A stretch of 37,293 nt of DNA from a virus: the IMG/VR virus record IMGVR_UViG_3300047170_000057, positions 1 to 37,293 of that record. The stretch is one strand, 5' to 3'. Numbering within the stretch: position 1 is the first letter of the stretch; each line of letters starts with the position of its first letter. Below are positions 5,265-37,293 of this stretch, one piece after another. The translations under genes were made by a program, and so were the position numbers. A model generated the notes under the pieces. It was not told the origin of the DNA, did not search any database, and was given only the letters and a program-made list of their open reading frames with translations.

Positions 5265-5268
5265 AATC

Positions 5269-5768: not shown

Positions 5769-5769
5769 G

Positions 5770-6315: not shown

Positions 6316-6318
6316 AAG

Positions 6319-6564: not shown

Positions 6565-6627
6565 TTTCGGCGTGCCGTGAGCGTGGCCTGACGCGGATCA
6601 TTACCGACGTTACCAAAGGTGATGATC

Positions 6628-8858: not shown

Positions 8859-9090
8859 TGTCATCCGCCTTGTGCAACAACGCCAAGGCAGCGTAACGTC
8901 CGCCGCGACGGTCGCTGCCATGTGCGCGATGTCCACCTACCGGCTCCGCGCGCCGCGGGACCGACTGCCAGGGCACGTTGCCCGACCGCTGCCGGCGCAC
9001 GTCGCGCGGGCCTGAGCACGCCGCTCACAATCCCCAGGTCTGCCCCTAGCACGTCGTTGGGATCAGCCGCACATCGCGGAGTTGATCCAC
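8859..9090 (+). other. Longest non-coding gap, between the scaffold module and capsid genes
   Basis: This 232-nt stretch is the longest gap in an otherwise gapless operon. It holds an inverted repeat just after the upstream stop (8867-8889) and a short GGGCA-CGT-TGCCC hairpin (8971-8983), both without a T-run. A ribosome binding site (GCGGAG, 9076-9081) belongs to the next gene. A GTG frame at 8872-9015 is open for 47 codons but has no ribosome binding site or family resemblance. A promoter or processing site for highly expressed capsid genes would be logical here, but I cannot point to clear -35/-10 boxes. Confidence 0.4.
8867..8889 (+). terminator. Inverted repeat after stop codon, weak terminator or processing hairpin
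   Basis: GCCTTG at 8867-8872 is perfectly complementary to CAAGGC at 8884-8889, with an 11-nt loop, starting 9 nt after the TGA at 8856-8858. No T-run follows, so it is not a canonical intrinsic terminator. It could act as an attenuator, an mRNA-end stabiliser or an RNase processing site ahead of the capsid genes, or be chance. Confidence 0.25.
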
Positions 9091-9711: not shown

Positions 9712-9720
9712 GAGCCCGGC

Positions 9721-10629
9721 ATGGCAATCAATCGGGCACAACTCCGCGATCTTCTCATCCCCGGACTGGCCGAGATCACCGGCAAATATCCGGATTTGCC
9801 CAAGCGCTACACGCAGATATTCGACACCGCGACATCCAAGCTGGCGATCGAGCGGGTGGCCGAGATGCGCTACACGGGCCTGGCCCAGCTCAAGAGCGAG
9901 GGCGGTGCGACGATGTTCGACAACGCGCCCGGCGAGCGCTTCGTCTACAACATCGAGCACCGCGCGATCGGCCTGGGCTTCGCCATCACCCGCGAGGCGC
10001 TTGACGACAATCTCTACAAGGAGAATTTCAACCCGCAGAGCATGGGGTTGATGGAATCGCACGCGCAGACCAAGGAAATCTTCGCCGCCAACATCATCAA
10101 CATGGGCACGGTGTTCAACCCGCTGGTCGGCGGCGACGGCGTGGCGCTGTTCTCCACGGCGCATCCGATCGACAACGGCACCTATGCCAACCGGCCGACC
10201 ACCGACCTCGATCTGAACGAGGCGGCGCTGGAAACCGCGTTGAACCAGATCAGGGTCTACCCGGACCAGGCCGGGCTGATCAGCATGACGCGCGGGCGCA
10301 AGATGGCGGTGCCGATCGCGCTGCAATGGGCGGCGGAGCGGCTGACCAAGACGGAACTGCGCGTCGGCACCAACAACAATGACGTTTCGGCGCTGTATTC
10401 GACCGGCGCGCTGCCGGACGGCTACGTGGTCAACGAGTTCCTCACCTCCAGCTTCGCCTGGTTCGTGCTGACCTCGGTCAAGGGGTTGGCCTATTACGAG
10501 CGCGTGCCGTTCGAGATGGACATGCAGGTCGATCCGACCACCGGCAACCTGCTGGTGATGGGCTACGAACGGTTCGGCCTGGCGCACAAGAACCCGAGGG
10601 CCGTCTGGGGCAGCTTCCCGACCGCGTAA
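9721..10629 (+). CDS. Major capsid protein (Mu gpT-like, HK97-type fold expected)
   Basis: This 302-residue protein has an AGGAG site at 9710-9714, 6 nt before ATG 9721. Its pattern fits the Mu-like major head subunit family: N-terminal helix AINRAQLRDLLIPGLAEITG, ERFVYNIEHRAIGLGFAITREALDDNLY, the characteristic LFSTAHP with following NRP, GLISMTRGRKMAVPIALQWAAERL, and a C-terminal NLLVMGYERFGLAHKNPRAV. Such proteins form the hexamers and pentamers of the icosahedral shell. The protein is short for the family and shows no N-terminal delta domain, consistent with the separate scaffold gene upstream. Copy number should be highest of all virion proteins. Confidence 0.88.
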   Translation: MAINRAQLRDLLIPGLAEITGKYPDLPKRYTQIFDTATSKLAIERVAEMRYTGLAQLKSEGGATMFDNAPGERFVYNIEHRAIGLGFAITREALDDNLYKENFNPQSMGLMESHAQTKEIFAANIINMGTVFNPLVGGDGVALFSTAHPIDNGTYANRPTTDLDLNEAALETALNQIRVYPDQAGLISMTRGRKMAVPIALQWAAERLTKTELRVGTNNNDVSALYSTGALPDGYVVNEFLTSSFAWFVLTSVKGLAYYERVPFEMDMQVDPTTGNLLVMGYERFGLAHKNPRAVWGSFPTA

Positions 10630-10650
10630 CCGGCAGAAGGAACCGCCTGC

Positions 10651-11589
10651 ATGTCGATAGCCTCACAGCCAGGGCCGCTGATCGTGTTCGGGCAGAACCC
10701 GCCGGTTGCCGGTACCAATTACCAGCCCGACTATAATCCCGACAGCGGACCGAGTGCGTTCGGTACCGGGGTAATGATGCTCGATACCCGCTACGGCTTC
10801 CGCGCCAGCCTGCAAGCGGGCGGGCTTTGCGCCCTGGGCTTCTACCAGACGGTCTATCAGTTGCTGGTTGACCAGATACCGTCCGCCTATGCCATCGGCA
10901 ACGTCGCCGGCGGGGCATTGGTGACGAGCGGCACGCCGATGACGCTGGTCAGCGTCAGTGGCGCCGGGGTGATGGTCTCTTCGGCGGTGCAGGTCATGCC
11001 GGTATCCGGCACTGTCATGCCGGTGGGCACACACTGGCTGGACAGCGCGCCGGCCACCATCAGCTTCGGCCCCAACGGCAGCGTGCAGGTCTACGACCCG
11101 CGCACCATGCTGATGCGCGCCCTCTCGATCACCGCGAGCGGCACCGCCACCGGCGGCGTTTTCATCTGTCGCGGCGCCGACGCTTACGGCGTGCCGGTGA
11201 CCGAGCAGATCACCGCCGTCACCGGCTCGACGATCACCGGCCAGAAGGGCTTCAAGGCGGTCTACTCGGTGACGCCGCTGTTCACCGACGCGCACAACTA
11301 CTCGGTTGGCACCTCGGACGTTTACGAGTTCCCGCTTCAGGCGCTGACCTGGGCGGCGGTCGAGGTGACCTATATCAATACCTTCATTGCCGCCAGCACC
11401 GGTTTTGTCCCGGCCAGCACGATCAGCCCGGCGACGACCACCTCGGGCAGCACGCGCGGCACCTATGCGCTTCAGAGCGCGGCGAACGGCACCAACCGGC
11501 TTCAGTTGGCCGCGTCCGTGCCGGCGCAGTCGGCCGCCGCCAGCTATGGCCCCGCCAGCCTGTTCGGGGTGCTCAACAATGCCTCGTGA
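10651..11589 (+). CDS. Virion structural protein, beta-rich, function unknown
   Basis: The 312-residue protein follows the capsid gene by 21 nt, with AAGGA before ATG 10651. It begins MSIASQPGPLIVFGQNPP and has long Ser/Thr/Gly/Ala-rich beta-type stretches, with FGPNGSVQVYDPRTMLMRALSITAS and DAYGVPVTEQITAVTGSTIT as distinctive segments. The second resembles repeat-type phage structural proteins where 'D..G...te.i...G....G.k.F..i..V' recurs. I expect a head-exterior or connector-region protein, but there is no decisive motif. It has no signal peptide or membrane segment. Confidence 0.65.
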   Translation: MSIASQPGPLIVFGQNPPVAGTNYQPDYNPDSGPSAFGTGVMMLDTRYGFRASLQAGGLCALGFYQTVYQLLVDQIPSAYAIGNVAGGALVTSGTPMTLVSVSGAGVMVSSAVQVMPVSGTVMPVGTHWLDSAPATISFGPNGSVQVYDPRTMLMRALSITASGTATGGVFICRGADAYGVPVTEQITAVTGSTITGQKGFKAVYSVTPLFTDAHNYSVGTSDVYEFPLQALTWAAVEVTYINTFIAASTGFVPASTISPATTTSGSTRGTYALQSAANGTNRLQLAASVPAQSAAASYGPASLFGVLNNAS

Positions 11590-11595
11590 TGCCTG

Positions 11596-11904
11596 ATGGC
11601 GCAGCCCGTCACCCTGACCGTGAGCGGCGTGGGTATTTCGCCGTGGAAGAATGTGAACTTCCGCGAGGCGGCGTTCCATCTTCAGATCAACTGTTTCGTG
11701 ACCGGGACCGTGACGTACAATATCGAAACGACCAACAGTGACTATCTGACGTCCAGTGTCACCGTGAACGTGGCGACCACCAGCATTGCCGGCGCGGCGG
11801 CTGCTGCATCCCTGGTGCTGGCTTCGCCTTGCCGGGCCTGGCGACTGAACATCTTGACCGGCACGGGCAGCGTGACGGCCGAAGCCGTGCAGAGCGGCTA
11901 CTAG
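11596..11904 (+). CDS. Small beta-rich virion protein
   Basis: The 102-residue product begins MAQPVTLTVSGVGISPWKNV, 6 nt after the previous stop. Alternating hydrophobic and polar residues (HLQINCFVTGTVTYNIETT; SSVTVNVATTSI; RLNILTGTGSVTAEAVQSGY) indicate a compact beta sandwich. This pattern is common among small head-exterior or tail-completion proteins encoded after the capsid gene. No family can be named with confidence. Confidence 0.65.
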   Translation: MAQPVTLTVSGVGISPWKNVNFREAAFHLQINCFVTGTVTYNIETTNSDYLTSSVTVNVATTSIAGAAAAASLVLASPCRAWRLNILTGTGSVTAEAVQSGY

Positions 11905-11914
11905 GAGCATGACC

Positions 11915-12331
11915 ATGGCAGCGAAAAAGCGGGCGAGCGGCGGCGGTGCCTTCGGCGGCGCCAAGTTCAAGGACGTGGACGGGACCAAGGAAATGGGCAA
12001 ATTCCACAAGATCGACAGCGCGGCAAAGGCTGCCAGGCTTGGCACCAAGACGAGCTCTGACGGATTTGCCCGCGGCGGCGCAGCGAAGAAGGCCGGCGGC
12101 GGGGGCATCGATGAGGATGGCCTGGCACGCTCGCCGTCAGACGCCGACGACGCCGGGCGCAAGCGTGGCGGTTCGGCGAAAAAGGCCGGCGGCGCGGTGG
12201 CCGGCGCCAAGGCCGCACCCAGCCTGGCGAAACGCGCCCGCGGCGGACGCACCGGCAACCAGCCGTTCTCCGGCGCCACGTCGATGACCGACCGCGCAGG
12301 CTCCGCCAACTCCGGTCACGAGGGCGAGTAG
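11915..12331 (+). CDS. Basic Gly/Ala/Lys-rich low-complexity protein
   Basis: ATG 11915 is preferred to ATG 11909 because AGGAG at 11903-11907 is 7 nt from the former and 1 nt from the latter. The 138-residue protein (MAAKKRASGGGAFGGAKFKD) is strongly basic and disordered-looking, with repeated RGG/KKAGG units: SSDGFARGGAAKKAGGGG, RKRGGSAKKAGGAVAG, KRARGGRTGNQPFSG. DGFARGG matches a motif found in two other proteins here (22018 and 24405 genes). A DNA- or capsid-interior-binding role would suit the charge, but that is inference. Confidence 0.6.
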   Translation: MAAKKRASGGGAFGGAKFKDVDGTKEMGKFHKIDSAAKAARLGTKTSSDGFARGGAAKKAGGGGIDEDGLARSPSDADDAGRKRGGSAKKAGGAVAGAKAAPSLAKRARGGRTGNQPFSGATSMTDRAGSANSGHEGE

Positions 12332-12361
12332 CCCGGCGCCGAGGCATAGGGCCTAGATCGC

Positions 12362-13039
12362 ATGACCCTCGCGCCGTTCACCCCGGCGCTGTCGGAACTG
12401 GCGCTCGATGCATGGGAGCGCGTCGGCAAGCAGGCCGGCGACCTGACGGTGACGCACATCAACTCGATGCGCCGGTCGATGAACCTGGTGCTGGCGCGCT
12501 GGGCCAACCGGGGCATCAACCTGTGGCGCGTGGCGCAGGTCAGTCTGCCGCTGCTGCCGGGCGTGGCGACCTATACGCTCGATCCGGCGACGATCGAGAT
12601 GCTGGATACCTACATCAGCACCAGCTACGCCGGCATCACCACCGACACCATCATCACGCCGATGAGCCGCGACACCTTTGCGGCGCTGCCCTACAAGCTT
12701 CAGCCGGGACGGCCGCTGCTGTACTGGTTCGACCGCACGATCACGCCTTCCGTGACGCTGTGGCCGGTGCCGGACATCGCCTACACCATGCCGTATTTCG
12801 CCTTCAGCCAGATCGCCGACGCGGATGCGGCGAGCGGCAACGCGGCCAATCTGCCGTACCGGTTCCTGGAGGCGTTCACCGCTGCCCTGGCGGCGCATCT
12901 GGCGATCAAATGGGCCGATCCGCAGCGCGCCGAGGCGCTCGACGCTTACGCCGACAAGACCTGGGAAGAGGCATCCGACGAGGACCGCGAGAAAGTCACG
13001 CTGAGCATGGCGCCCGACTTCGGCGCCTATTTCGAGTAG
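12362..13039 (+). CDS. Head-tail adaptor (P22 gp4-like / packaged DNA stabilisation type)
   Basis: The 225-residue product begins MTLAPFTPALSELALDAWER. Features typical of gp4-like adaptors are the N-terminal helix with MRRSMNLVLARWANRGINLW, the 'LLPGVATYTLDPATIEMLD' turn-and-strand segment, then PMSRDTFAALPYKLQPGRPLLYWFDR and PSVTLWPVPD, followed by a helical C-terminal part (FLEAFTAALAAHLAIKW). Such proteins bind below the portal, seal packaged DNA and connect the tail. The ribosome binding site is weak. A second adaptor-type gene lies at 17650, so one of the two may serve a more distal position. Confidence 0.65.
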   Translation: MTLAPFTPALSELALDAWERVGKQAGDLTVTHINSMRRSMNLVLARWANRGINLWRVAQVSLPLLPGVATYTLDPATIEMLDTYISTSYAGITTDTIITPMSRDTFAALPYKLQPGRPLLYWFDRTITPSVTLWPVPDIAYTMPYFAFSQIADADAASGNAANLPYRFLEAFTAALAAHLAIKWADPQRAEALDAYADKTWEEASDEDREKVTLSMAPDFGAYFE

Positions 13040-13042
13040 GCC

Positions 13043-13546
13043 ATGGCGCTCGCCCATTCCGCCCGCGCGCCGCTCGATATCTACCGCCCGGAGCCGGTGG
13101 GCATCTGCGACCGCTGCGATTTCAAGTATCCGCTCGCCCGGCTGACCGAACAGCGGCAATGGGCGGGTGCCGGGACCGTCGGTCTGGGTCTGCGCTGCTG
13201 TCCGCGCTGCCTCGACGAGCTGCAACAGAACGGCTTTCGCACGATCATCATCGGGCCGGAGGGGGTGCCGCCGCCGCACGCCCGGCCGGGCAGCCTGTTC
13301 GCCCGGATGGGAGCGGGACCGGCGCCGCAGTTCGTGCTGGAGGACGTGCAGGTCAATGCGCCGGATGTCAGCGTTTGGCTGCTGACCGAGACCGGGCAGT
13401 TGCTGGGGACCGAAACGGATGCGCAGTTGTTCTGTTTCGATAACACAACTGCCACATCAGCCATGCTGATCGCGCCAGATGACATGCTGACCGAGACCGG
13501 GCAGTCGCTGGTGACCGAAAGCGGCCAACCGTTCGTCACGGATTAG
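13043..13546 (+). CDS. Zinc-ribbon-type phage protein with C-terminal LTETGQ repeats
   Basis: The 167-residue product contains ICDRCDFKYPLARLTEQ and LRCCPRCLDELQ, giving paired CxxC knuckles about 35 residues apart, the arrangement of a zinc ribbon. I recall the same 'iCDrCgfkyrlseL...w....vC..C.d..hPqdf' pattern from small proteins in tail gene clusters of several podo- and siphophages, unassigned. After a Pro-rich linker, two near-repeats occur: LLTETGQLLGTET and MLTETGQSLVTES, plus SGQPFVTD. The repeats may be short beta hairpins that mediate contact with tail proteins. Function unknown. Confidence 0.7.
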   Translation: MALAHSARAPLDIYRPEPVGICDRCDFKYPLARLTEQRQWAGAGTVGLGLRCCPRCLDELQQNGFRTIIIGPEGVPPPHARPGSLFARMGAGPAPQFVLEDVQVNAPDVSVWLLTETGQLLGTETDAQLFCFDNTTATSAMLIAPDDMLTETGQSLVTESGQPFVTD

Positions 13547-22841: not shown

Positions 22842-23057
22842 ATGGCCTACCCCTACAGCGACACCGGAACGAGCCAGCCGCATACCATGGTGCACGACGA
22901 GGCTACCCGGCTGGCGGAGCGACTCGGCCTGGCGGGTGTGCTCGCCGCTTCGTTCGGGCGCTGGGAACGGCTGCTGTTTCCGGCGATGAACAAGCTGCTG
23001 GACCGCATCGAGGCGCTGGAGCGCGACCGGCCGCCGCCGACTTTCAATGGTGGATAA
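22842..23057 (+). CDS. Small hypothetical protein
   Basis: ATG 22842 has AAGGAG at 22829-22834 with 7-nt spacing. The 71-residue product, MAYPYSDTGTSQPHTMVHDE, is helical from residue 20 on (ATRLAERLGLAGVLAASFGRWERLLF; LLDRIEALERD). It overlaps the following acetyltransferase gene by 11 nt. No domain recognised. Confidence 0.6.
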   Translation: MAYPYSDTGTSQPHTMVHDEATRLAERLGLAGVLAASFGRWERLLFPAMNKLLDRIEALERDRPPPTFNGG

Positions 23058-23640
23058 TCCCTACGGGCTGCGCGTTGCGGTGCCGGCCGACGCCGAGGCA
23101 TTGCTGGCCTTCGTGCTGCCGATCTACGAAGAGGACGCGGCGCAGCCGGTGTCCGTCGTCAAGGTGGCGGCGATCGTCGCGCGCTGCATCGCCCGCGACC
23201 GCGCGATTGCCGGCATCGTCACCGGCCCGCACGGCATCGAGGCCAGCGTCGGCGCCACTATCGATGTGTTCGACTACTCGGACGAGCCGCACGCCATGGT
23301 GAAATGGCTGGGCGTGGCGCCGGCGTTCCGCAAGAGCGACCGCGCCGCGCGCATGGTGAGCTATGTCCGCTGGCTGTATGAAACGATGGCCTCGATGGAG
23401 CCGGTGCCGGTGCCGGTGTTCCTGCCGGCGCTGACGACTTCGGAACAGCGCCGCAAGGTGCTACTGTATCAACGTCGGGCTCCGCAGGTGGGCGTGCTGT
23501 ACGCCTTCGGATGCCTTCCTGACAGATCGTTCTTCAATCCTGGCCGCGCCGGTCCCAGGGAAGGCGGCCTGAAGGAAGACATCAGGAGCCCGCCCCTTGT
23601 CCGTCCTTCAGTCCCTTCCATCCCTGCCAGCACTGGCTGA
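23047..23640 (+). CDS. GNAT-type N-acetyltransferase (first of a tandem pair)
   Basis: GNAT enzymes transfer an acetyl group from acetyl-CoA to an amine. The N terminus VAVPADAEALLAFVLPIYEED matches the first GNAT strand-helix, and WLGVAPAFRKSDRAARMVSYVRWLYETM corresponds to motif A, the CoA-pyrophosphate-binding loop, in the 'V.P..R.s..A..L' form common in phage members. The target is unknown. The 197-residue length is inflated by a 40-residue Pro/Arg-rich tail that overlaps the next gene by 44 nt. In another frame the sequence stops near 23571, just before the next ribosome binding site, so a late frameshift is possible. Confidence 0.72.
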   Translation: MVDNPYGLRVAVPADAEALLAFVLPIYEEDAAQPVSVVKVAAIVARCIARDRAIAGIVTGPHGIEASVGATIDVFDYSDEPHAMVKWLGVAPAFRKSDRAARMVSYVRWLYETMASMEPVPVPVFLPALTTSEQRRKVLLYQRRAPQVGVLYAFGCLPDRSFFNPGRAGPREGGLKEDIRSPPLVRPSVPSIPASTG

Positions 23641-24289
23641 TGTCGCGCGGACAGCGCGCCCTTCAGGCGACGACAGTTATGTCGTCGATAACGATGCGCT
23701 GATCCGCCTGGGCGACGGCAGTCCGGCAAGGGGCCGGGCGCGGCTTCGCCTGTTGCTGGCCGACGAACGCGAGCGCAAGCCGATCAGCGGGCCGGTGATC
23801 AAGCCCGCCAGCGTCCGGCTGGCGACGATCCGCGACGAGCCCGCCATCCTGGACCTGCTGCTGGCCGACCTGGCGGAGAACGCATCCAAGGTCGCCACGC
23901 CTTCAATCTCGCAGATCATGCGCCAGGTCGAGCCCGGCACCCGTCAGCAAGGCGCCTTCGTGCCGGTGATCGACGGCGACGACGCCAAGCCGGTCGCAGT
24001 CGCCATTCTCCACCCGCAGAAATGGTGGTGGTCCGACACGATCTATCTGTCCGAAACCGTGATGTATGTCGCGCCGGAGGCTCGCAAGGGGCACGCCGGG
24101 CGCGACCTGCTTCAGTACGAGTGCTGGTTGTCGGACCAGATGAGCGCGGAGATCGGCCAGCGGATTTTCGTGCTCGCCGGGGTCACCGCTACGCGGCGCG
24201 GCCGAACCAAGCTGCGGCTCTACTCACGCCACATGAACCCGGTGGGCGGATTTCTGATCTACCCGGCGATTGACGGGATGACGCTATGA
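23597..24289 (+). CDS. GNAT-type N-acetyltransferase (second of the pair)
   Basis: The TTG start at 23597 is favoured by AGGAG at 23584-23588 with 8-nt spacing; no other start lies near in frame. After an unrelated 70-residue N-terminal part, VRLATIRDEPAILDLLLADLAENA begins the GNAT fold. Next comes a segment around GAFVPVIDG, then MYVAPEARKGHAGRDLLQYECWLSDQM as motif A. It finishes with FVLAGVTATRRGRTKLRLYSR, the strand-helix that closes the fold. It resembles the upstream protein in order, suggesting an old duplication. Substrate unknown; acetylation of host proteins, aminoacyl-tRNA or small molecules are all possible. Confidence 0.75.
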   Translation: MSVLQSLPSLPALADVARTARPSGDDSYVVDNDALIRLGDGSPARGRARLRLLLADERERKPISGPVIKPASVRLATIRDEPAILDLLLADLAENASKVATPSISQIMRQVEPGTRQQGAFVPVIDGDDAKPVAVAILHPQKWWWSDTIYLSETVMYVAPEARKGHAGRDLLQYECWLSDQMSAEIGQRIFVLAGVTATRRGRTKLRLYSRHMNPVGGFLIYPAIDGMTL

Positions 24290-27400: not shown

Positions 27401-27536
27401 CACGGCGCCGCCCGCCGCGGTCCAGGCGCCGCCGCCTGATGCCGTCGCGCACCTCAAGGCCAACCCCAATCTGTCGCAGGCGTTCGACCAGAAATACGGC
27501 ACCGGTGCGGCCGGCGCGGCGCTGGCGACACCATGA
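24405..27536 (+). CDS. Gln/Ala-rich internal virion (putative ejection) protein
   Basis: The 1043-residue protein has GGAGG 5 nt before ATG 24405. Residues 1-360 are Gln/Ala/Asn-rich: PYQPYTGNLQASFSPLQQQG, then QYESPYTQQVVNSTQAQFNN and AGNAASQGALGGDRVGVAQ. Near-repeats of 'GxAGLGxxxLxxxxxQ' follow. The middle has Gly-rich NRGGRVTGGFANGGG and NRGGTVGFGHNG motifs and a Pro/Ala linker. WAALATAGFAMAAGRSPHAL is a possible membrane-active helix, and the C-terminal third is charged coiled coil. It ends HLKANPNLSQAFDQKYGTGA. Similar proteins sit next to giant polyvalent genes in other phages. An internal or DNA-ejection role is inferred. ATGA overlap joins it to the giant gene. Confidence 0.65.
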   Translation: MSGGGGTNTSTSSNAPPAQYLQAYSAVNQAAQKAATAPYQPYTGNLQASFSPLQQQGFNTVASTQGEQAPYLSTAAQDFSNATAPLTATSQPYVNQAQSGFSGAANANLQGSIAPYAAAAAQNYAAGSRQLTPQQYSGQALQQYESPYTQQVVNSTQAQFNNQNAQAQTQLAGNAASQGALGGDRVGVAQGVLAGQQQSAQAPVIAGLENTGFQQAQQEFNQQQQTNLTAQQQSEALKQQAAQGYAGLGTQALTAAQQQAALQEQSATGEAGLGSQELSAAQSQGWLNSQAGSGFAGLGNEALSGTLSQANAELGAGGTQQAQAQTALNIPYEQYLAQQSYPFQSIGWLANIAEGLGGASGGTSTSTTPAASIGSQLGGLATGTAGVLGQTGAFGSSANGYNGWLTGSGSSANGSGYSSALSSDWSNSGAGFTNRGGRVTGGFANGGGVPDVAVNGFGVGGAPGSQNVLVGGSGVPQIGSVVPGASGLGDAPTTGGTSLMNKDYGTTTTTSGGGGGALAGLKSLFNTAAGIGVGIATSNPYAGAATSTGLGVLGANRGGTVGFGHNGVLHRAPGGYVPVAPAGFAAGGASPINLRGFADAGPVTVLDPDDPAALGLGDSGVPDGPMGRTALGFGKPPPAALDNDRLNPPPVPDLGVPARTTDDAAPPAAAPASAASSPDPGAPSSWQDEPLSVAGKPPPAGGFSRAPPPAGLAASPPGQAPAQADAPSPVYHSIAGDHGASLGSDRAVTDNRASPWAALATAGFAMAAGRSPHALENIGAGALAGEEEYISDDKSAKQLAASVDEKRAQIASTQAYQQAMLDTRGDKTSAVLLAAQQRTQEMSERNSQMMAIAVLKASESASRAGGRLSPADLMSAAADSLKGQINPATGQEYTPMERYHAANNVTATNDFHQQALDQKTTHDAALQTHRDWQETHGDATTDETNRHNQQMESLGLSRQDLGLIEATKGPTGQPTMTVPQAHATTSSVRALNAPAGGFGTAPPAAVQAPPPDAVAHLKANPNLSQAFDQKYGTGAAGAALATP

Positions 27537-30500
27537 ACCCGTTCGATCAGTTCGACGCGCCGGTCGCCACCGCGGCGCCGCCGGCCAATCCGTTCGATGT
27601 CTTCGACGCCAAGCCTGTCGCGGCGACGGCGCGGCCCTCAGGCGACACGCAACCGGCGCGCTTCGATCCCAGGGCAGCGCCGCCGCCGGCCGCCGATCCG
27701 ACCGACGCCGGGCCGCATGACGAGTTCGGACTGCCGGTACGCTCGATCTTGCCGGATGTGTCGGACAATCAGCCGTTGCCGCAGGGCAGCATGGGCTTCG
27801 ACCGCGCCTATACGCCGGGCTGGGACTGGCAAATGCCCGGCCAGACCGAGCAGGCGCGGCAGCGGAACTTTGTGCCTGATCGGGACAGTGGCATCGACAC
27901 ACTGAAGGTGCCAGGGCAAGGCGTCGATGCGCCGGCGCGCGATCCGAAGAAGGCCTACGAACCAGCGGTCAACGTGCCGGGGCAAAGCTGGAATACGGCG
28001 GTCTACAACAGCACGCTGCAAAATCTGACATCCAGTGCTGCCGGGGCATTCATCGGCACACCCGGTGAACTCTACCGTGCCGGCCAGTCTGGTGTCGCGA
28101 CCGAGGTCTTGCGCCACATAGACGACATTGACCAAGGCAAGACCGATCAGTCGTGGTCTGTTTCCAACCCCGTAAAATATCAGGTCGCGGCCTATCTGAG
28201 CGCGTCACCCGATCAGCGGCAGCAGATGAAGGCTGACCTGATCGCCCGCGCCGCGTCCGCCGATCAGCCGAACGCCGCGACCACGCTGAGCGACAATATC
28301 GGCGCGTGGGGACAGCAACAGTTTCCGGTCGCCACCGCGAACCAGGGCTTTGGCACCAAAGCCGGCGGGATGGCTGGCTCGTTCATTCCCATGGTCGCCG
28401 CCGGCGCGGCCCTTGGCCCGGAGGCCGGCTTGGCGGTGGCCGGCTTGCAGACGTACCACGGCGCCAGGGCGGAGGCTGTTGCCAAGGGCGCCACGCCGCA
28501 GCAGGCAGACCAGGCGGCGACTTATTCGGCGCTGTCCACGATGGGTATCTTTGCGCTGCCGTTTGGCATGGCCGCGAAGTCGGTGCTGCCCGAGCTGAGC
28601 AGCGGCATGCTGAAATCCATCCTGGAAACGGGCGTCAAGGGCGGCGAATTCAGCGTTGCCGGTGCGGTGTCGCAGGCCACCGACAACGCCATCAAGAAGA
28701 AGGTTTACGACCCCAACCAGTCGTTGACCGAGGGCGTACTGGAAGCTGGCGTGGCGGGTGCCTTGACCGGGGCCGCGTTCGGTGTGCCGGGCATGGTCGA
28801 TGCCACGGGCCGCGCGATCAATAGGGCGCGGCAACCCGCTGCCAACGAGGCGTTCCAGGCGTTCTATCGCGCACAGCGAGGGGCCGCGAACGAGGCGAAT
28901 GCGTGGGATGAGCCTCGGCCGCCGGGACCGCAGGGGCAACTGGCCGGGCCGGGCTCGACACCGCCGGGAGGCGAGCCGCCCGCACCATCCGCACCGCCGG
29001 GACCAAGAACGCCGCCGCCTGGTCCTGCCGCGCCGGCCGGGCCAACCGCGCCTGTGCCAAGTGCTCCGGTCGGGAAGCCGCCTGACGTGCCGAGCCCGGC
29101 CGCACCCGGTCCAGCGGCACCACCTGCTGTCACGCCGACCCCGACGATACGGACACCGGCGCAGATTCAGCAGGCCGAAGGTGTCGGCTACAATCAGGCG
29201 GTCCAGATACAGGCCCAGGAAAAGGCCGCCGCCGCCGCGGCTGCCGCCCCGCCTGCCGCCACGCCGCCCGGCCCGCATGACGTGCTGGCGAACATCGCGG
29301 CCGGCAAAGACCCGCAGACGCCGGTTCCGGCGGCTCCGCCAGCCACGCCGGTTGCGCCCGCCCCTCAAGCTGCGCCAGCGCCGGTTGTGCCACCACCGGT
29401 TGCTGCGCTGCCCCAAACTCCGACCGAGCCGCCGGCTGCACCGCCGCCCACACCGCCGCCCGAGGTAAAGCCGGCCGAACTGCCGCCGCCCATGGAAGCG
29501 GTGACGTCGCATGCTCCGCCTGCCGCCCCGAGTGCTAAGCAGGAAATCGCCGCGCCGGACAAGCCAGCCGTGTTGCCTGCCGCGCCGGACAAGCCTCCGG
29601 TTCAGGAGACCATACCAGACAGCCTCTCTGCGCTGACGCCCGAGACGGTCACCCACACCACCAAGAAGGGCAAGGTGCTCACCGGCACGCTTCGCCCCGA
29701 CCTGGATTTTGCCGGCGCCAAGGCGCTCGACCCTTACGCCTTCAAGAAGGACGGCGGCTGGTTCATCCGCACCCCGGCAAGCGCAGCCGCACCGGCCGAG
29801 GTCAAGCCGCCCGCCGAACCATCGGCGCCGACAGTGCCGCCTGCACCGCCAGCCGTACGGACGCCGGGGCAAATCCAGCAGCAGGATGGCGTCAACTTCC
29901 AGGATGCGGTGAAGATCCACGCGCAGGAGAAGCAAGCCGCTGCCGCGACTTACGTCACCACGCCGGAGGGTAGCCCGGACCTGGGCAGGATCGACGACAC
30001 CATGGCGGCGGCGATCGGCAGCGCTTCGGCGCCGATCCGCCTGACGAGGGGAGCCGAGGCGCATATCGGCGAGCGGCAAGACGAACTGGCAATGCACGGG
30101 TTTTCAAGCCCGATCGACTTCGTTCAATCAGTCGCCACGCACTTCAGCGAAATTTGGTCCGCGGGCGGGGACTCGCTGATGCTCGTCCGGCGTGTGCCGG
30201 CCGATGGTCGTGAACGGGCTCACAGCCTCTATGTGCTGCTGCAACATAGCGATCCAGGCCGTGCGGGAAGTAGCGCCTACGAAGTGCAAAGCGGCGGAGT
30301 ATTTCGCCGCGCCTACCCCAAGGGGTCTGGCAGAAAGCTGCTTTGGCAAGGTGAGCGCGCGAACATCGACCCCGCCGGCACCGACAGCCGGACGACCCCA
30401 CACCGCCCCCAGCTAACAGGGTCGGAACCAGAAACGATGCACAGCGCGGGGAGCCAAAGCGCGCCAGATGTAGGCAACGCGGACGCTGAAGGCAACAAAC

Positions 30501-33500
30501 TACTCTGGCAAGGCGAGCGCGCCACCATCGCCCCCACCGACTCCGACAGCCGAATGCCCGTTACCAACCCCCCCGGAGATGAAGCCGGAACCGGGGACGC
30601 CAGCGCTAGGAACCAGAGAGAGCCAGATGTAGGCGCCCCGAACACCGAAGGCAACGGGTCGAGCGGTAAACCCGATGTGCGCCCGACCCTGACCACGCCG
30701 GACAACCCGCTGATCAGCGAAAGCCGTGCCGACCAGATACGCGCCATGCTGCGCGCCAAGGCGGCGGCGATGCGGACGGGCGTCGATCCCAACGCGCCAG
30801 GCACGCAACTGGCGGCGCGGCCGGGCGGCATGGACGCCGAGATCATGCAGGGCGGCGCGGAACTCGCCGTCTACTATCTCGAACGCGGCGTGCGCGCCTT
30901 CCCTGACTATGCCCGAAAGATGATCGAGGACGTGGGCGAAGAGTTCCGGCCTTACCTCAGAATGTGGTATGAGGGCGCCCGATACTATCCCGGCCTGGAC
31001 GCGTCAGACCTGACGCCGCACGCCGGGGTAGACGCCGAAATCGCGCGTTGGGGACAGGAGGGCACCGATGGACCACAGGCAAGTGGACCCGGAGACGGTG
31101 CGCTGGTGCCACCAGGAGGTGGCGCGGTGGGCCAAGGAGAGTTGGTTTCCGGGCGGCCCTCGGGAGCAGGAACTGATAGCGCACTGGAAGGTTCACAGCC
31201 CGCGAATGTATCGGCGCCTGCAAGCGGCGGGGATACTGGAGCAGATGGCGTTCGTCCTGGACATGAACCGCTACGAGACGAAAAAGCAGTACCTGGCGGC
31301 GGGGATGCCGCCAACGGACGCGGAAGAGGAAGCGACGAAGGACTGGCTACTGATGGGGCCGGAAGCGGACCGGACCACGAACTGATCCCGGCGCCGGCTC
31401 GGACTAACTTCCACATTGACGACCCCGAGGCGCTGATCGGCGGCACGCCCAAGGTCCGCTTCGCCCGCAACCGCGCCGCGCTCGATGCCCTGGCCGCGAT
31501 CGAGGACGAGCAGCGCGCTCCCTCCCCCGACGAACTGAAAGCCATGGCCGGCTATATCGGCTGGGGATCGTTCGGCCAGGAGCTGTTCAAAGGCAACTTC
31601 GACAGGCCGCTGCCGCGCCCCGGCTGGGATGCCGAGGCGAAATGGCTGCGCGAGCGGCTGGGCCGGGACGCCTGGAACTCAGCGCAGGAAAGCATCGCCA
31701 ACGCCCACTACACCGACCCGATCACCGTCAAGACCATGTGGGACATGGTGCAGAAGATGGGCTTCAAGGGCGGACGTGTCCTGGAACCGTCCATGGGCGT
31801 CGGCAACTTCTTCGGCCTGATGCCGCGCGATGTGATGGCGAACAGCGTGCTGACCGGGATCGAGATGGATACCACCACCGGCGCGATGGCGAAGCTGCTG
31901 TATCCCGACGCCGGCATCCACATCAAAGGCTACCAGGACAGCCTGACGCCGGACGACTTCTACGACCTGGTGATCGGTAACTGGCCGTTCCATCAGGTCG
32001 GACCCGTCGATCGGCGCTACGACCGCTTCAGCCCGACGCTGCACAACTACTTCTTCCTGAAGGCGCTGGATCAGGTGCGCCCCGGCGGGCTGGTAGTGGG
32101 CATCACCGCCAAGGGCACGATGGACAGCGCCGGCCGGTCCGCCCGGCTGGAGATGGCGCGCAAGGCCGAACTGCTGGCGTCGTTCCGGCTGCCCTCCGGG
32201 GCGTTCGAGAAATACGCCGGCACCGCCGTGGTCACCGACCTTATCGTCCTGCGCAAGCGTGCGGAGCCGCACCCGAACCCATCGGCGGAACCTTGGATCG
32301 CCTCGACGGACATGATGACACCGGCGGGCCAGACCATCCGCGTCAACCGGCATTACCAGGATAACCCGGCTGCGGTGCTGGGCACGCTCGACTTCGGCCG
32401 CGGCACCACTCAGAAGCAGCCTGGGATGATCGTGCATCGGCCCGACAACCTGTTGCAGCTCATGCAGGACTTGCCGAACCGCGTGCCGGCGGACGGTTAT
32501 CAGCCGATCATCCGCGGCAATGAGCAGCGGTTCCTCGCCAACAACACCGCCGCAAGGCAGAACAACGTCGTCATCCATGACAACGGCAAGCTGTATCAGG
32601 TCAAGGGCGACCAGTTGCAGCCGCTGGACGTGTTGCATCCGGCTTTGCGCAAAGGCACTGCGGCGGTCGTCAAGGCGCGCGATGAACAGGTGCGCGGGCT
32701 GGTCGGCATGCGCGGCGCCTATGGCGCGCTGATCGACGCCGAGCGTGACGGCAAGCCGCAAACCGAGGCGCTGCGCAAGGCGCTGGCGGACCAGTATGCC
32801 GCGTTCCTGGCCAAGCACGGCACAATTGGCAAGTCCGAGGGGCTGAAAGTCCTCGATCATGTCAAGGACCCTGGCTACCCCGTGGTGGCGGCGCTGGAGC
32901 GGCCGGACGGCACGCCTTCGCAGATACTGAGCCAGCCGACTGTTCGGTCGCGGCGCAGCCTGGACAACCCGTCGATCGGTGACGCCTACGTGCTGGCGCG
33001 CAACGAGCAGGTCAACTTCGACATGGCGCGGGTGGCCGAGCTGGCGAAGCAGCCACAGGCGGCGGTGGAGCAGCATCTGCTGGACAGCGGCGCGGTGATG
33101 CGGACGCCGGGCGGCGGCTTCGAGCCGGCGGACAGCTATCTGTCGGGCAACGTGCGGCGCAAGCTGGCGGAGGCGCAACAGGCGCTGGCGAGCGGCGAGA
33201 CGGCGATGCAGCCCTCGATCGACGCGCTGACCGCCGTCGTGCCGAAAACCAAGCCCTACTACATGATCCAGGCCAACCTTGGCGCGGCCTGGCCGGGCGA
33301 CGAAACCTACCGGCATTTCGTCCAGGACATCCTCAACCTGACACCGGACGAGGCCAAGGCCGGCATCGAGATCGGCTTTGTCGGCGCCCGCTGGAAGGTC
33401 CGGATCGACGGCGGAATACAGAACAAGACGGAAGCCAGGCAGGTCTGGGGACACCCGAGGGTGGACTTTCAGGATGTTCTGAAAGCCGCGATGGGCAACA

Positions 33501-36500
33501 CCATGCTGTCGATCTACGACCCCAAAGACAAGGACGGCGGCCCTTACTTCAACGCCAAGGCCAGCGAGGAAGCCAACGCCAAGGTCGCCGGGCTGCGCGA
33601 GAAGTTCAACGAATGGGCGTGGCAGGACCCGCTACGCAAGGTCCAGCTCGAAGCCGCCTACAACGAGACGATGCGCGCCGTCGCCCCGGCCCGCTTCGAC
33701 GGCTCGTTCATGGATATGTCCGGCATGGCGCTGCGTCGCGGCAACGATCCATTCTCGCTGCGCCAGCATCAGATCAACGCGATCTGGCGCGGCGTGGTGA
33801 CCGGGCGCGGTTTCTTCGCGCATGAGGTGGGCACCGGCAAGACATACACCATGGGCGGGATCGCAATCGAGGGGCGGCGCTACGGGGTGTTCCGCAAGCC
33901 CATGCTGTTCGCCCACAACGCCAACTCCGCCGCCGTGTCGCGCGAAATCCAGCAGATGTATCCCGGTGCGCGCATCCTCTACGTGGACAACCTGGCGCCG
34001 GCGACGGTGAAGACCACGCTGCACCGGGTTGCCAACGAAGACTGGGACCTGGTGGTGATGCCGCACAGCGTCATGGACAAGCTGGCGCTGACCCGTGCGA
34101 CGCTCGACACCCTGGCGGCCGAACAGATCGCGGCCCTGGAAAGCGAGGCGATCGACGCGGCGGAAACCGATGGTTTCACGCTGACGCCGGAGATGATGGA
34201 CGACCCGGAGGCGATGAAGAAAATCCGCAGCCCCACGGCCAAGGACCTGGTGACGACGCGCAAGCGGATCAAAGCCAGGATCGACAAGATGGCGCTGCGT
34301 GCCTCGGAGCCGGGCGCGGTGACGTTCGAGCAACTGGGCGTCGATGCGATCATGGTGGACGAGGCCCACGTATTCAAAAAGCCGGTCATATCGACGCAGA
34401 TGCGGGTGAAAGGGCTGAACACCGCGGCATCGAACCGCTCGATCGCGCTGGACTTCCTGACCGGTTATACCAAGCAGCAGAACAACGGCCGCGGCGTCTA
34501 TCTTTTCAGCGGCACGCCGATCACCAACACGCTTAACGAAGTCTTCAATCAGGCCCGCTACTTCATGCAGGACCGGATGGCCGCGGCCGGCGCCGGGGAC
34601 TGGGATACCTGGTTCAACACCTTTGCCAACGCCGAGAACGATGTCGAGTTGACCGCGGCAGGCACCTATGAGCCGGTCAAGCGGCTGTCGCAGTTCTCCA
34701 ACGTCGATGAGCTGGTGGCGCTGATGTCGGAGTTCACCGATGTCGTGCAGGCCAAGGACATGCCCGAGTTCAAGCCGCGCGCCACGGCGGACGGCAAGAC
34801 GCTGCACGCGCCTGACCTGACGCCGGCGGACCGCGCGTTGCTGACCAACGGCCGGGCGGAGAACGCGCAAGGCCGGCCTTACGTGCGGACCATCAACGAC
34901 GTGGGGCAGATGTCCGGCCACCAGCGGGCGATTCTCGATGACGTGCGGGCGCGGGTGGAGTCCTATCGGGCGCTGACGGGCAAAGAGAAGCGGGAACTGA
35001 CGTTCGCCCATCTCTCGGACCCCGACCCGGTAACCGGCAAGCGGGTGGCGCTGGGTCCGCCCGATCCCCGCCTGCCGCTGATCACCGAGTCCGATCCGCC
35101 CAGGGCAAGCCTGGACCAGCGGATGTACGACCCGGCCCTGCCGGAAGACCCGGAGAGCAAGACCAACCGTGTCGTGCGCAACGTGCTGCGGATTTACCAG
35201 CAGCCGAAGGCCGCGCAGGCGATCTTCCTGGACACCGGCTACAACGCGGCGAAGTCGTCGGAGGGACGGTCAAACCGCTTCGTGCTGGTCAACGACCTGA
35301 TCGCCAAGCTGGTGAAGGGCGGCATTCCCCGCAGCGAGATCGCGCTGTTCGGCGGCGGCATGACGGGCGAACAGAAGGACGCGTTCGCCAAGGAGATGAG
35401 CGCCGGCACCAAGCGCATCGCGATCGGGGCGACCGAAACAATGGGCACCGGCGTCAACATGCAGACCCTGCTGCGGGCCATGCACCACATGGATGCGCCC
35501 TGGATGCCGGGCGACCTGGAACAGCGCAACGGCCGCGGCAACCGGCAGGGCAACACGTGGAACACCGTCGAGGAATACCGCTACATCACCGAGGGGCTGG
35601 ACGGTAAGCGGTGGCAAGTCCTGATGGCCAAGGACAAGTTCATCAAGAAGTTCATCAGTGCCTTCAACGACAAGTCGGGCGATTTCATCGGCTCGATCGA
35701 GGGCGACGCCACCGACATCGGCGACAAGGAGGATGTGCTGGCATCGCTGTCGGCTGCCGCCGGCGACCCGCGCATCATGCAGCGGGCGCAATACCGGGCG
35801 CAGGTGGACAAGCTGACCCGGCGCGAGCGGCTGCACACCATCGGTCAGGCCGAGGCGATCCAGAGCCTGCACCGGCTGAAGAGCGCGCAGCAGCAGCATC
35901 TGGTTGAGGCGCAGAAATACGCCGGCTGGGCGAAGACGTGGCAGGAAGCCGTCGCCCGGACGCAGGCCGCGCAGGAGGCGATGAAAGGCACGCACCGCCT
36001 GTATGAAGCGGGTGACACACCCGGCATTGCCGGCGGGGTATCGAGCGTCAATCCGGCGCATGGACGCACCGCGTTCTACCGGGGGACCGACCTGCAAGAC
36101 GCGATCGACGCGCAGGTGAAGACCCTGGCGCCGGGCGAGCAGCGGACCCTGGCGGTGATCAACGGCTTCACCGTAGGGGCTGACTGGTCCAACCAGAAAC
36201 GCACCGAACCGGCCTACTACATTGACGATGCGGCCGGGACCGAGGTTGGCGAAATCCAGGCGCCCGGCATCGCACGCATCGTCAACCGGCTGAACAGCAT
36301 GGCGGGCGCGTCGGACGCGGCGATGTTCCGCCATGGCGAGGCCGCCAAGTCGATGGGCGCGCTGGACGCCCAGGCGAAGATGGACTTTCCGCAGCGCGAG
36401 GTGTTGCTGAAGAAGCGCCTGCAACTGGCGAAGCTGGAAGACGATCTACAGGGCAACCCGATCCCGCCGCCGGCGTGGCTGCGTCTCGGTGCGCCGCTGG

Positions 36501-37293
36501 ACAGCGATATCCACGTCAACGGCGAGAAGCGCATCGTGCGCGGGCACCGCATGGGCGATGACTATTCCCTGGCGACCGACGAGGGCGACGTGCCCTACAT
36601 GCAGGCCAAGGACGAGAACGGCCAGCCGCTGTTCGAGCAGCATCCGTTGCCGCCGCCGCCGAAGCCGAAAGCGGTGCCGGAGTGGGCCAAGAAGCAGGTC
36701 GAGGCGGCCAAGGCCGAACTGGTCTGGCACGACGGCGATATCGCTCTTCTGCGGAGTAACCCGGAAAACGGTGATGTCGGCTACGGCGCCATCAAGAAAG
36801 GCGTCGATGGGATCGCGGACCTTGGACGCGGACGACGCAGCGGGTTTGACCACAAAGAATGGGAGGCGCTGGAGAACGCCAGGGACGACCATATTGCCCG
36901 CGAGGCGAACCGGGCGGCGCTGGAGGCAGCCAGGACACCTGATGCGCCGGCACCAGACGCACCTGAGCCTGTCGCACTGACGACGGCCTATGACGAGCAT
37001 CTGAACATGGGTGCCGTCAGCCTGACCAGCGGGCGTCCGCAGGTGCCTGGGTCCTTGTCCGACGATCAGTTCTCGCGGCGCAAGGGCAAGCCCAACCAGA
37101 AGCCGACTGCCGTTTCGGCTGTCGTTCCAGCGGAACTGGCGCAACGGGCAAGCGATGCCCGCGACAGGCTCTACACCGCTGCCCAGGGCATGATGCGATT
37201 CCTCGGGCTGCCCGAGAAGGTCGCGCTGAAGTTCGTGCAAAACATCGCGGTTCAGGGCGGCGGGCAGGCCGACGCGATGTATCAGCATGCGTT
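27533..37293 (+). CDS. Giant polyvalent protein: methyltransferase plus SNF2-like helicase (3' end beyond window)
   Basis: The frame from ATG 27533 (ATGA overlap) is open to the window end: at least 3253 codons, with no stop seen on reading it codon by codon. Layout: NPFDQFDA/NPFDVFDA (residues 2-9, 19-26); Ala/Gly-rich hydrophobic stretches (about 278-350); Pro/Ala linker (about 460-700); possible barnase/EndoU-like domain (about 814-943); tandem repeat (935-1041); helical domain with RPYLRMWYEGARYYPGLD (about 1066-1159); linker; N6-adenine methyltransferase with EPSMGVGNF (1418) and NWPF (1483); SNF2-like helicase with GTGKT (2100), DEAH (2276), SGTP (2326) and QRNGRGNRQG (2664); coiled coils. 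It matches DarB-like polyvalent proteins, which protect incoming DNA from restriction. Injection with the genome is inferred. The C terminus, perhaps with peptidase or muramidase domains, is outside the window. Confidence 0.85.
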   Translation, partial: MNPFDQFDAPVATAAPPANPFDVFDAKPVAATARPSGDTQPARFDPRAAPPPAADPTDAGPHDEFGLPVRSILPDVSDNQPLPQGSMGFDRAYTPGWDWQMPGQTEQARQRNFVPDRDSGIDTLKVPGQGVDAPARDPKKAYEPAVNVPGQSWNTAVYNSTLQNLTSSAAGAFIGTPGELYRAGQSGVATEVLRHIDDIDQGKTDQSWSVSNPVKYQVAAYLSASPDQRQQMKADLIARAASADQPNAATTLSDNIGAWGQQQFPVATANQGFGTKAGGMAGSFIPMVAAGAALGPEAGLAVAGLQTYHGARAEAVAKGATPQQADQAATYSALSTMGIFALPFGMAAKSVLPELSSGMLKSILETGVKGGEFSVAGAVSQATDNAIKKKVYDPNQSLTEGVLEAGVAGALTGAAFGVPGMVDATGRAINRARQPAANEAFQAFYRAQRGAANEANAWDEPRPPGPQGQLAGPGSTPPGGEPPAPSAPPGPRTPPPGPAAPAGPTAPVPSAPVGKPPDVPSPAAPGPAAPPAVTPTPTIRTPAQIQQAEGVGYNQAVQIQAQEKAAAAAAAAPPAATPPGPHDVLANIAAGKDPQTPVPAAPPATPVAPAPQAAPAPVVPPPVAALPQTPTEPPAAPPPTPPPEVKPAELPPPMEAVTSHAPPAAPSAKQEIAAPDKPAVLPAAPDKPPVQETIPDSLSALTPETVTHTTKKGKVLTGTLRPDLDFAGAKALDPYAFKKDGGWFIRTPASAAAPAEVKPPAEPSAPTVPPAPPAVRTPGQIQQQDGVNFQDAVKIHAQEKQAAAATYVTTPEGSPDLGRIDDTMAAAIGSASAPIRLTRGAEAHIGERQDELAMHGFSSPIDFVQSVATHFSEIWSAGGDSLMLVRRVPADGRERAHSLYVLLQHSDPGRAGSSAYEVQSGGVFRRAYPKGSGRKLLWQGERANIDPAGTDSRTTPHRPQLTGSEPETMHSAGSQSAPDVGNADAEGNKLLWQGERATIAPTDSDSRMPVTNPPGDEAGTGDASARNQREPDVGAPNTEGNGSSGKPDVRPTLTTPDNPLISESRADQIRAMLRAKAAAMRTGVDPNAPGTQLAARPGGMDAEIMQGGAELAVYYLERGVRAFPDYARKMIEDVGEEFRPYLRMWYEGARYYPGLDASDLTPHAGVDAEIARWGQEGTDGPQASGPGDGALVPPGGGAVGQGELVSGRPSGAGTDSALEGSQPANVSAPASGGDTGADGVRPGHEPLRDEKAVPGGGDAANGRGRGSDEGLATDGAGSGPDHELIPAPARTNFHIDDPEALIGGTPKVRFARNRAALDALAAIEDEQRAPSPDELKAMAGYIGWGSFGQELFKGNFDRPLPRPGWDAEAKWLRERLGRDAWNSAQESIANAHYTDPITVKTMWDMVQKMGFKGGRVLEPSMGVGNFFGLMPRDVMANSVLTGIEMDTTTGAMAKLLYPDAGIHIKGYQDSLTPDDFYDLVIGNWPFHQVGPVDRRYDRFSPTLHNYFFLKALDQVRPGGLVVGITAKGTMDSAGRSARLEMARKAELLASFRLPSGAFEKYAGTAVVTDLIVLRKRAEPHPNPSAEPWIASTDMMTPAGQTIRVNRHYQDNPAAVLGTLDFGRGTTQKQPGMIVHRPDNLLQLMQDLPNRVPADGYQPIIRGNEQRFLANNTAARQNNVVIHDNGKLYQVKGDQLQPLDVLHPALRKGTAAVVKARDEQVRGLVGMRGAYGALIDAERDGKPQTEALRKALADQYAAFLAKHGTIGKSEGLKVLDHVKDPGYPVVAALERPDGTPSQILSQPTVRSRRSLDNPSIGDAYVLARNEQVNFDMARVAELAKQPQAAVEQHLLDSGAVMRTPGGGFEPADSYLSGNVRRKLAEAQQALASGETAMQPSIDALTAVVPKTKPYYMIQANLGAAWPGDETYRHFVQDILNLTPDEAKAGIEIGFVGARWKVRIDGGIQNKTEARQVWGHPRVDFQDVLKAAMGNTMLSIYDPKDKDGGPYFNAKASEEANAKVAGLREKFNEWAWQDPLRKVQLEAAYNETMRAVAPARFDGSFMDMSGMALRRGNDPFSLRQHQINAIWRGVVTGRGFFAHEVGTGKTYTMGGIAIEGRRYGVFRKPMLFAHNANSAAVSREIQQMYPGARILYVDNLAPATVKTTLHRVANEDWDLVVMPHSVMDKLALTRATLDTLAAEQIAALESEAIDAAETDGFTLTPEMMDDPEAMKKIRSPTAKDLVTTRKRIKARIDKMALRASEPGAVTFEQLGVDAIMVDEAHVFKKPVISTQMRVKGLNTAASNRSIALDFLTGYTKQQNNGRGVYLFSGTPITNTLNEVFNQARYFMQDRMAAAGAGDWDTWFNTFANAENDVELTAAGTYEPVKRLSQFSNVDELVALMSEFTDVVQAKDMPEFKPRATADGKTLHAPDLTPADRALLTNGRAENAQGRPYVRTINDVGQMSGHQRAILDDVRARVESYRALTGKEKRELTFAHLSDPDPVTGKRVALGPPDPRLPLITESDPPRASLDQRMYDPALPEDPESKTNRVVRNVLRIYQQPKAAQAIFLDTGYNAAKSSEGRSNRFVLVNDLIAKLVKGGIPRSEIALFGGGMTGEQKDAFAKEMSAGTKRIAIGATETMGTGVNMQTLLRAMHHMDAPWMPGDLEQRNGRGNRQGNTWNTVEEYRYITEGLDGKRWQVLMAKDKFIKKFISAFNDKSGDFIGSIEGDATDIGDKEDVLASLSAAAGDPRIMQRAQYRAQVDKLTRRERLHTIGQAEAIQSLHRLKSAQQQHLVEAQKYAGWAKTWQEAVARTQAAQEAMKGTHRLYEAGDTPGIAGGVSSVNPAHGRTAFYRGTDLQDAIDAQVKTLAPGEQRTLAVINGFTVGADWSNQKRTEPAYYIDDAAGTEVGEIQAPGIARIVNRLNSMAGASDAAMFRHGEAAKSMGALDAQAKMDFPQREVLLKKRLQLAKLEDDLQGNPIPPPAWLRLGAPLDSDIHVNGEKRIVRGHRMGDDYSLATDEGDVPYMQAKDENGQPLFEQHPLPPPPKPKAVPEWAKKQVEAAKAELVWHDGDIALLRSNPENGDVGYGAIKKGVDGIADLGRGRRSGFDHKEWEALENARDDHIAREANRAALEAARTPDAPAPDAPEPVALTTAYDEHLNMGAVSLTSGRPQVPGSLSDDQFSRRKGKPNQKPTAVSAVVPAELAQRASDARDRLYTAAQGMMRFLGLPEKVALKFVQNIAVQGGGQADAMYQHA
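29150..29941 (+). repeat. Two copies of an RTPxQIQQ-AQEK segment in the giant gene
   Basis: Positions 29150-29233 and 29858-29941 encode 28-codon segments of the form RTP(A/G)QIQQ..GV....AV.I.AQEK.AA. The copies differ at many bases, so they are an old duplication. Between them lies Pro/Ala-rich linker plus KKGKVLTGTLRPDLDFAG, a possible small beta domain. Each copy may mark the beginning of a domain in a modular polyprotein. Confidence 0.6.
30335..30655 (+). repeat. Tandem 54/53-codon repeat in the giant gene
   Basis: Copy 1 (30335-30496) and copy 2 (30497-30655) abut. Both begin KLLWQGERA.I, continue with .DSR, then a variable stretch, and end PDVG...(A/T)EGN. Nucleotide similarity is clear (for example GGCAAGG.GAGCGCGC and CCAGATGTAGGC). 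Third positions use more A and T than the surrounding gene. The first copy begins at what looks like the last strand of the preceding domain, so part of that domain's end seems to have been duplicated into the linker. Confidence 0.7.
31056..31062 (+). promoter_or_regulatory. Ideal ribosome binding site for the nested gene
   Basis: AGGAGGG, with a 5-nt spacer to ATG 31068, is among the best Shine-Dalgarno matches in the window. It lies inside the coding sequence of the giant gene, where such a strong internal site is not expected by default. It is the main evidence that the nested frame is translated. Confidence 0.65.
31068..31385 (+). CDS. Overprinted gene nested out of frame in the giant gene
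   Basis: An ATG at 31068, 5 nt after a perfect AGGAGGG (31056-31062), opens 105 codons in a frame different from the surrounding giant gene, ending at TGA 31383-31385. The product (MDHRQVDPETVRWCHQEVAR, then WFPGGPREQELIAHWKVHSPRMYRRLQAAGIL and AAGMPPTDAEEEATKDWLL) reads as a compact helical protein with Trp and charged residues. Third positions in this frame are mostly G/C, whereas in the giant frame they are rich in A. The giant frame here encodes only Gly/Ala/Pro-type linker. I do not recognise the family; both frames could be translated. Confidence 0.65.
   Translation: MDHRQVDPETVRWCHQEVARWAKESWFPGGPREQELIAHWKVHSPRMYRRLQAAGILEQMAFVLDMNRYETKKQYLAAGMPPTDAEEEATKDWLLMGPEADRTTN

Follow-up and report, generated by a model that had tools for sequence, protein, structure and literature searches.

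What kind of protein is encoded by a very long open reading frame that directly follows virion genes and runs off the end of a virus record? The window, i.e. the whole stretch of DNA that was analysed, is an entire linear virus record of 37,293 bases (IMGVR_UViG_3300047170_000057), and the assembly end cuts the gene in question, hereafter the megagene. In the ORF listing, it starts with ATG at position 27533 on the plus strand and continues for 3253 codons without a stop up to the window end. An initial annotation, made from the letters alone, had described an uninterrupted frame of more than 3250 codons that combines a methyltransferase with a SNF2-type helicase. This frame was confirmed, and all of the motifs quoted for it were found in the window protein: EPSMGVGNF at residue 1418, NWPF at 1483, GTGKT at 2100, DEAH at 2276 and SGTP at 2326, with QRNGRGNRQG located C-terminal of SGTP. 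The coordinates of all features are listed in Table 1.

The GC content of about 67% generates long spurious frames on the other strand, of up to 630 codons, and the initial annotation had itself named a stop codon or an assembly chimera in the frame among the findings that would refute its reading. An independent contig, L003, contradicts a chimeric or chance origin of the frame. This 66.8-kb virus record encodes a relative of the megaprotein that is 80% identical to window residues 1053-3251, i.e. over 2200 residues, and 47% identical to residues 63-445. In the same alignment, the two genes differ at 275 first, 192 second and 612 third codon positions, which points to purifying selection on the protein. 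Moreover, in both the window and L003, g19447 is followed by two genes of the acetyltransferase type, then by the ejection-type gene and the megagene. The identity, the codon pattern and the shared gene order together imply that the frame is real. Hence, we rejected an assembly chimera or a chance open frame, the likelihood of which we consider negligible.

Upstream of the megagene we found terminase, portal, capsid, tail and ejection-type genes, i.e. a virion gene setting. The placement of the megagene beside an internal virion protein gene, as annotated initially, held as well: its start and the stop of the upstream 1043-codon gene overlap in ATGA, which makes translational coupling of the two genes plausible. 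The order acetyltransferase, ejection protein and DarB-like protein is common to the window, L003 and Lessievirus.

Table 1. Coordinates of the megagene, its encoded regions and its upstream neighbours in the window.
Feature	Position	Strand	Remarks
Positional counterpart of the acyl-CoA N-acyltransferase that neighbours DarB in Bcep22-like phages	23047..23640	+	Synteny only; same place in L003
GNAT-type acetyltransferase	23597..24289	+	
Upstream ejection-type internal virion protein, 1043 aa	24405..27536	+	Weak match to PHROG 4287 (DNA ejection protein); ATGA overlap with the megagene
DarB-like megaprotein gene, 5' 3253 codons	27533..37291	+	Open at window end; full length of roughly 4,200 codons expected from L003
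First doublet copy, NPFDQFDA, residues 2-9	27536..27559	+	
Second doublet copy, NPFDVFDA, residues 19-26	27587..27610	+	
N-terminal region, residues 63-445, Gly/Ala-rich helical stretches	27719..28867	+	Weakly similar to PHROG 10691 and to virion RNA polymerases in their N-terminal part; 47% in L003
Exchangeable cassette, residues 446-1050, Pro/Ala linkers and small modules	28868..30682	+	Absent from L003; GC3 below that of the core
Small recurrent module, residues ~698-762 (~65 residues, ..FKKDGGWFIR..)	29624..29818	+	Recurs in many phage megaproteins
Orphan helix-then-four-strand domain, residues 820-929	29990..30319	+	Low-confidence single-sequence model
Conserved module ahead of the methyltransferase, residues ~1055-1170	30695..31042	+	PHROG 10089 positions 1246-1348
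LPD36-like helical domain, GWGS (GXGU) at residues 1343-1346	31445..31702	+	Sequence motif
EcoKI/TaqI-like adenine methyltransferase domain; motif I EPSMGVGNF 31784-31810, motif IV NWPF 31979-31990	31703..32400	+	Motifs, model
SNF2-type ATPase; Walker A GTGKT 33830-33844, DEAH 34358-34369, SGTP 34508-34519, Helicase_C 35336-35548	33700..35752	+	
Post-ATPase region, residues 2790-3253	35900..37291	+	Kept in close relatives; leads to HEAVH peptidase-like motif in L003

Residues 1207-2976 of the window protein match PHROG 10089, annotated as DarB-like antirestriction (E = 0, 1442 bits). In tblastn searches, 115 phage records matched. The best matches were the Pseudomonas phages USP_18 and USP_25, with 43.9% identity over 85% of the query, followed by podophages of Burkholderia, Klebsiella, Ochrobactrum, Erwinia and Agrobacterium, many of which carry proteins annotated as DarB-like.

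A structure model of residues 1290-2480 was calculated from a 58-row alignment, from which two rows from named phage records had been excluded, and reached a mean pLDDT of 84.8 and a pTM of 0.68. The top solved matches on its methyltransferase side were type I M subunits, BsaXI, M.TaqI and the M subunit of EcoKI, while those on its ATPase side were the SNF2 ATPases ISW1, BRM and ALC1. The methyltransferase and helicase folds on which the initial annotation had staked its reading are thus both recovered. The Helicase_C profile matched the C-terminal lobe of the ATPase just under its cut-off. In 60 relatives, the motifs GWG(S), HYTDP, motif I, N-x-P-F, Walker A, DE-x-H and GTP were invariant or nearly so. 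Both glycines of GWGS were invariant, which fits the GXG(G/A/S) of LPD36 N-terminal to the methylase, and HYTDP (residues 1392-1396) is a capping motif of the TP type. Homology, fold and gene context hence support the identification as a DarB-like polyvalent protein proposed at the outset. The megaprotein is a new, divergent example of a described class, the Bcep22/DarB-like polyvalent proteins; with it, the DarB-like anti-restriction proteins gain a large environmental branch.

The assignment of the methyltransferase needs more care. The fold and the TP-type capping motif agree with a canonical gamma-class N6-adenine methyltransferase, but motif IV reads NWPF instead of NPP(F/Y), and NPP(Y/F) is also the motif published for this methylase (PMC5512222). 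Among the 60 aligned relatives, 49 have NWPF, 6 NVPF, 2 NYPF and only 3 NPPF, whereas all 49 members of the sister set, which centres on LASTA, Lessievirus and related phages, have NPPF. P1 DarB itself has NVPF. A limited literature search found no paper stating that the second residue of motif IV differs from proline in a whole clade or in the archetype. Judged by its motif, we do not class the domain as a canonical NPPF enzyme. Because the second residue of motif IV is not a proline in the whole clade and in the archetype, we regard methylation by an NWPF-type domain as putative.

One possibility, to which we assign an appreciable but minority chance, is that the methyltransferase of the NWPF clade no longer methylates. 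It would instead bind SAM or DNA and form, with the ATPase, a moving cover or roadblock against restriction complexes. The substitutions in motif IV, set against the uniform NPPF of the sister set, and the NVPF of the working archetype P1 DarB are in line with such a role, and a review describes Dar as possible physical shielding in cis (PMC12707154). However, the asparagine, the second proline and the phenylalanine of motif IV never vary in the 60 relatives, which implies that the site is kept, and together with the invariant motif I this argues for a retained active site. The changed motif in this branch therefore bears on whether DarB protects DNA via methylation or by covering it.

Outside the core, the initial annotation had announced linkers and several other domains. 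Separate modules were seen, but within the window none of them carries a named enzymatic profile. In the alignment with L003, window residues 446-1050 have no counterpart in the L003 megaprotein, and their GC3 is 0.68-0.80 versus 0.83-0.91 in the megagene core. By these sequence comparisons, residues 446-1050 form an exchanged cassette. The small ..FKKDGGWFIR.. module within the cassette occurs in many phage megaproteins, ahead of the methylase or at other places, and has no Pfam or PHROG name.

The orphan domain of the cassette had no match in Pfam, PHROGs, the sequences of solved structures, or the viral and genome collections; in phages and plasmids, only hits with E > 4 appeared, and its weak single-sequence model gave no viral fold match. 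Its predicted layout of a helix followed by strands is only suggestive of a PBECR nuclease. The PBECR2 and PBECR3 profiles gave no match at E up to 10, and this assignment was rejected. As a separate observation, the stretch of L003 at positions 11591-12133 (megaprotein residues 590-770), where the window has a different cassette, looks ADP-ribosyltransferase-like by eye, mainly at about residues 620-760; the ART-PolyVal profile gave no match to it, and this candidate was also dropped.

The megagene of L003 is complete, with a stop after 4008 codons. By comparison, the window probably lacks about 960 residues of its megaprotein. Beyond the point that matches the window end, the L003 megaprotein contains an HExxH motif (HEAVH at residue 3072), and this motif is present in 60 of the 92 relatives that have more than 500 further residues past the ATPase. 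These regions agree with the metallopeptidases reported for polyvalent proteins (PMC5512222). The initial annotation had called the product a defence-evasion polyprotein. Its DarB-like polyvalent character stands, but the term polyprotein is not supported, as we see one polypeptide, with the peptidase-like region lying beyond the window, in L003. A DarB-like frame on contig IMGVR_UViG_3300046474_000370 (L133) has about 7,100 codons, far more than the 4008 of L003.

Building on the frame, homology, folds, gene context and cassette exchange established here, we consider it quite probable that the megaprotein is a DarB-like polyvalent protein of an uncultured short-tailed phage of the Bcep22 type, and that it is packed into the head, leaves it along with the DNA and blocks type I-like restriction in cis. 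Several steps can be envisaged. The protein would be synthesized late, together with the internal virion proteins, and its N-terminus would mediate loading into the head. It would then be ejected along with the phage DNA, and the SNF2-type ATPase would translocate on the entering DNA, while the LPD36-methyltransferase part would mark or cover sites. Together, these activities would block type I-like restriction enzymes in cis. This function would reside in the constant core, with the leader (residues 1-62) and the cassette (446-1050) as exchangeable accessories.

For this phage, we infer that the leader mediates loading and that the protein is injected, moves along the DNA and protects it from restriction; the injection and anti-restriction reading rests on what is known from P1. 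P1 DarB is a head protein packaged via its first 30 residues (PMC9024508), and Dar proteins act in cis, protecting only the DNA packed with them (PMC12707154). The relative JC1 gp69 was identified by 51 unique peptides from CsCl-purified virions (PMC9144972). Furthermore, in the published methylase-SNF2 model, the ATPase travels along the incoming DNA while the methylase marks it (PMC5512222). An effect of plasmid-borne darB on EcoKI was traced to the Chi and EcoKI sites that the DNA contained, not to the protein, and the mechanism of DarB has been called undefined, even in P1 (PMC11109961). The terminase large subunit (window 1254-2939) has its closest matches in Roseobacter phages and in an unclassified spring phage, at 38% identity, rather than in phages of the Bcep22 type. 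Its proximity to phages other than Lessievirus counts, like the NWPF of motif IV, against the explanation proposed here, and implies that the megagene and the head module could differ in their history.

A different role is conceivable, in which the protein serves mainly in ejection, as a scaffold or trans-envelope conduit of that machinery, and its enzyme domains are passengers of minor importance. Its Gly/Ala-rich N-terminal region is weakly similar to the N-terminal part of virion RNA polymerases, its gene is apparently coupled to the ejection-type gene, and relatives carry a transglycosylase at the N-terminus (PMC6606913, PMC6630229). Yet passenger domains would not need the strict conservation of catalytic motifs that we observed across very divergent relatives, and we regard this role as unlikely compared with that of a packaged anti-restriction protein.

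The window protein starts MNPFDQFDAPVATAAPPANPFDVFDA, in which NPFDxFDA occurs twice, 17 residues apart. Apart from Pro/Ala/Gly-rich runs, no other pair of this kind lies so close together in the 3253 residues. Tandem N-terminal doublets of a short aromatic/acidic motif were found in the window and in L002, L047, L048, L058, L067, L070, L078, L085, L093, L095, L102, L103, L107, L123, L129 and L133. The doublets differ between phages but are alike within a protein; the peptides of other relatives include KPWESF, NPYAKY, KPVDYDPFA, MFDDLIP, NPYLEDAP and LKPFTG. In 17 records, the motif was confined to the megaprotein and occurred twice at its start (in L047, once more at residue 373). Neither the N-terminus of L003 nor P1 DarB has a doublet.

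For each protein, the first 90 residues were searched for their best match to themselves, which was scored against shuffles, with a threshold of z = 3. This threshold was exceeded in 19 of 65 distinct proteins versus 10 of 390 windows taken from the interior of these proteins (Fisher p ~5e-11), and versus 16 of 245 N-termini of other ORFs (p ~3e-6). The doublet of the window itself scores lower, with z of ~2.3-2.7 over 90 residues and 5.2 over 40. Among 48 later-fetched relatives, 13 were above the threshold versus 5 of 192 internal windows (p ~8e-7), where at least two of the relatives lie on contigs already used in the first set, several are closely related, not all hits are tidy doublets and the figures ignore descent; we regard this as a partial replication. 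Where the two doublet copies have the same residue, 44 of 103 codons are different, and their flanks agree at ~10 of 30 bases, which implies that the doublets are not fresh DNA duplications.

The doublet would most simply be read as a signal for loading or docking, given that the N-terminus mediates the loading of P1 DarB and that N-terminal peptides of N4 gp52 sit within the head-tail adaptor (PMC12633501). More broadly, we tentatively suggest, at somewhat less than even chances, that the two peptide copies in the first ~60 residues of phage megaproteins form a general, undescribed virion-loading signal, with the pairs differing between phages as if each were tuned to the portal, adaptor or ejection protein of its own phage. 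The residues shared by the window and L003 begin at 63, and only the window has the doublet, which suggests that the leader is exchanged as a unit. Such signals could serve as short, portable tags with which proteins are packed into phage heads, and would offer a handle on the recruitment of very large cargo proteins.

The Bcep22-type podoviruses (BcepIL02 gp70, JC1 gp69, LASTA, Atu_ph08, POI1126) likewise carry a late gene of very large size behind genes of the acetyltransferase and ejection types, and their DarB-like proteins show the same order of LPD36-like domain, adenine methyltransferase and SNF2 ATPase. However, their core is only ~29-30% identical to that of the window and carries NPPF, their N-terminus and cassette are unrelated, and their terminase relatives differ. 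The best named relative, the 4899-aa megaprotein of Pseudomonas phages vB_PaeM_USP_18/25, has NWPF and an N-terminal doublet (KPWESF twice) like the window protein, but differs in its cassette and in the LPD23 and ART-PolyVal domains after the ATPase. A divided arrangement was seen in Streptococcus phage phi-SgaBSJ31_rum (L040, positions 4270-13489), where the methylase-SNF2 gene lies in two halves with an annotated retron-type reverse transcriptase gene between them; this may be a group II intron-like insertion.

DarB of Escherichia phage P1 (2255 aa) resembles the window protein in its methyltransferase followed by a helicase and in its non-NPPF motif IV, and is a packaged head protein. In contrast, it begins directly with the methyltransferase, without a leader doublet or cassette, and works together with other Dar proteins, none of which was identified in the window. 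The polyvalent proteins at large (Iyer et al. 2017, PMC5512222) have an NPP(Y/F) methylase where the window has NWPF, but share with the megaprotein the virion gene context, the LPD36-methylase-SNF2 module and, it would appear, the combination of several unlike domains in one long polypeptide.
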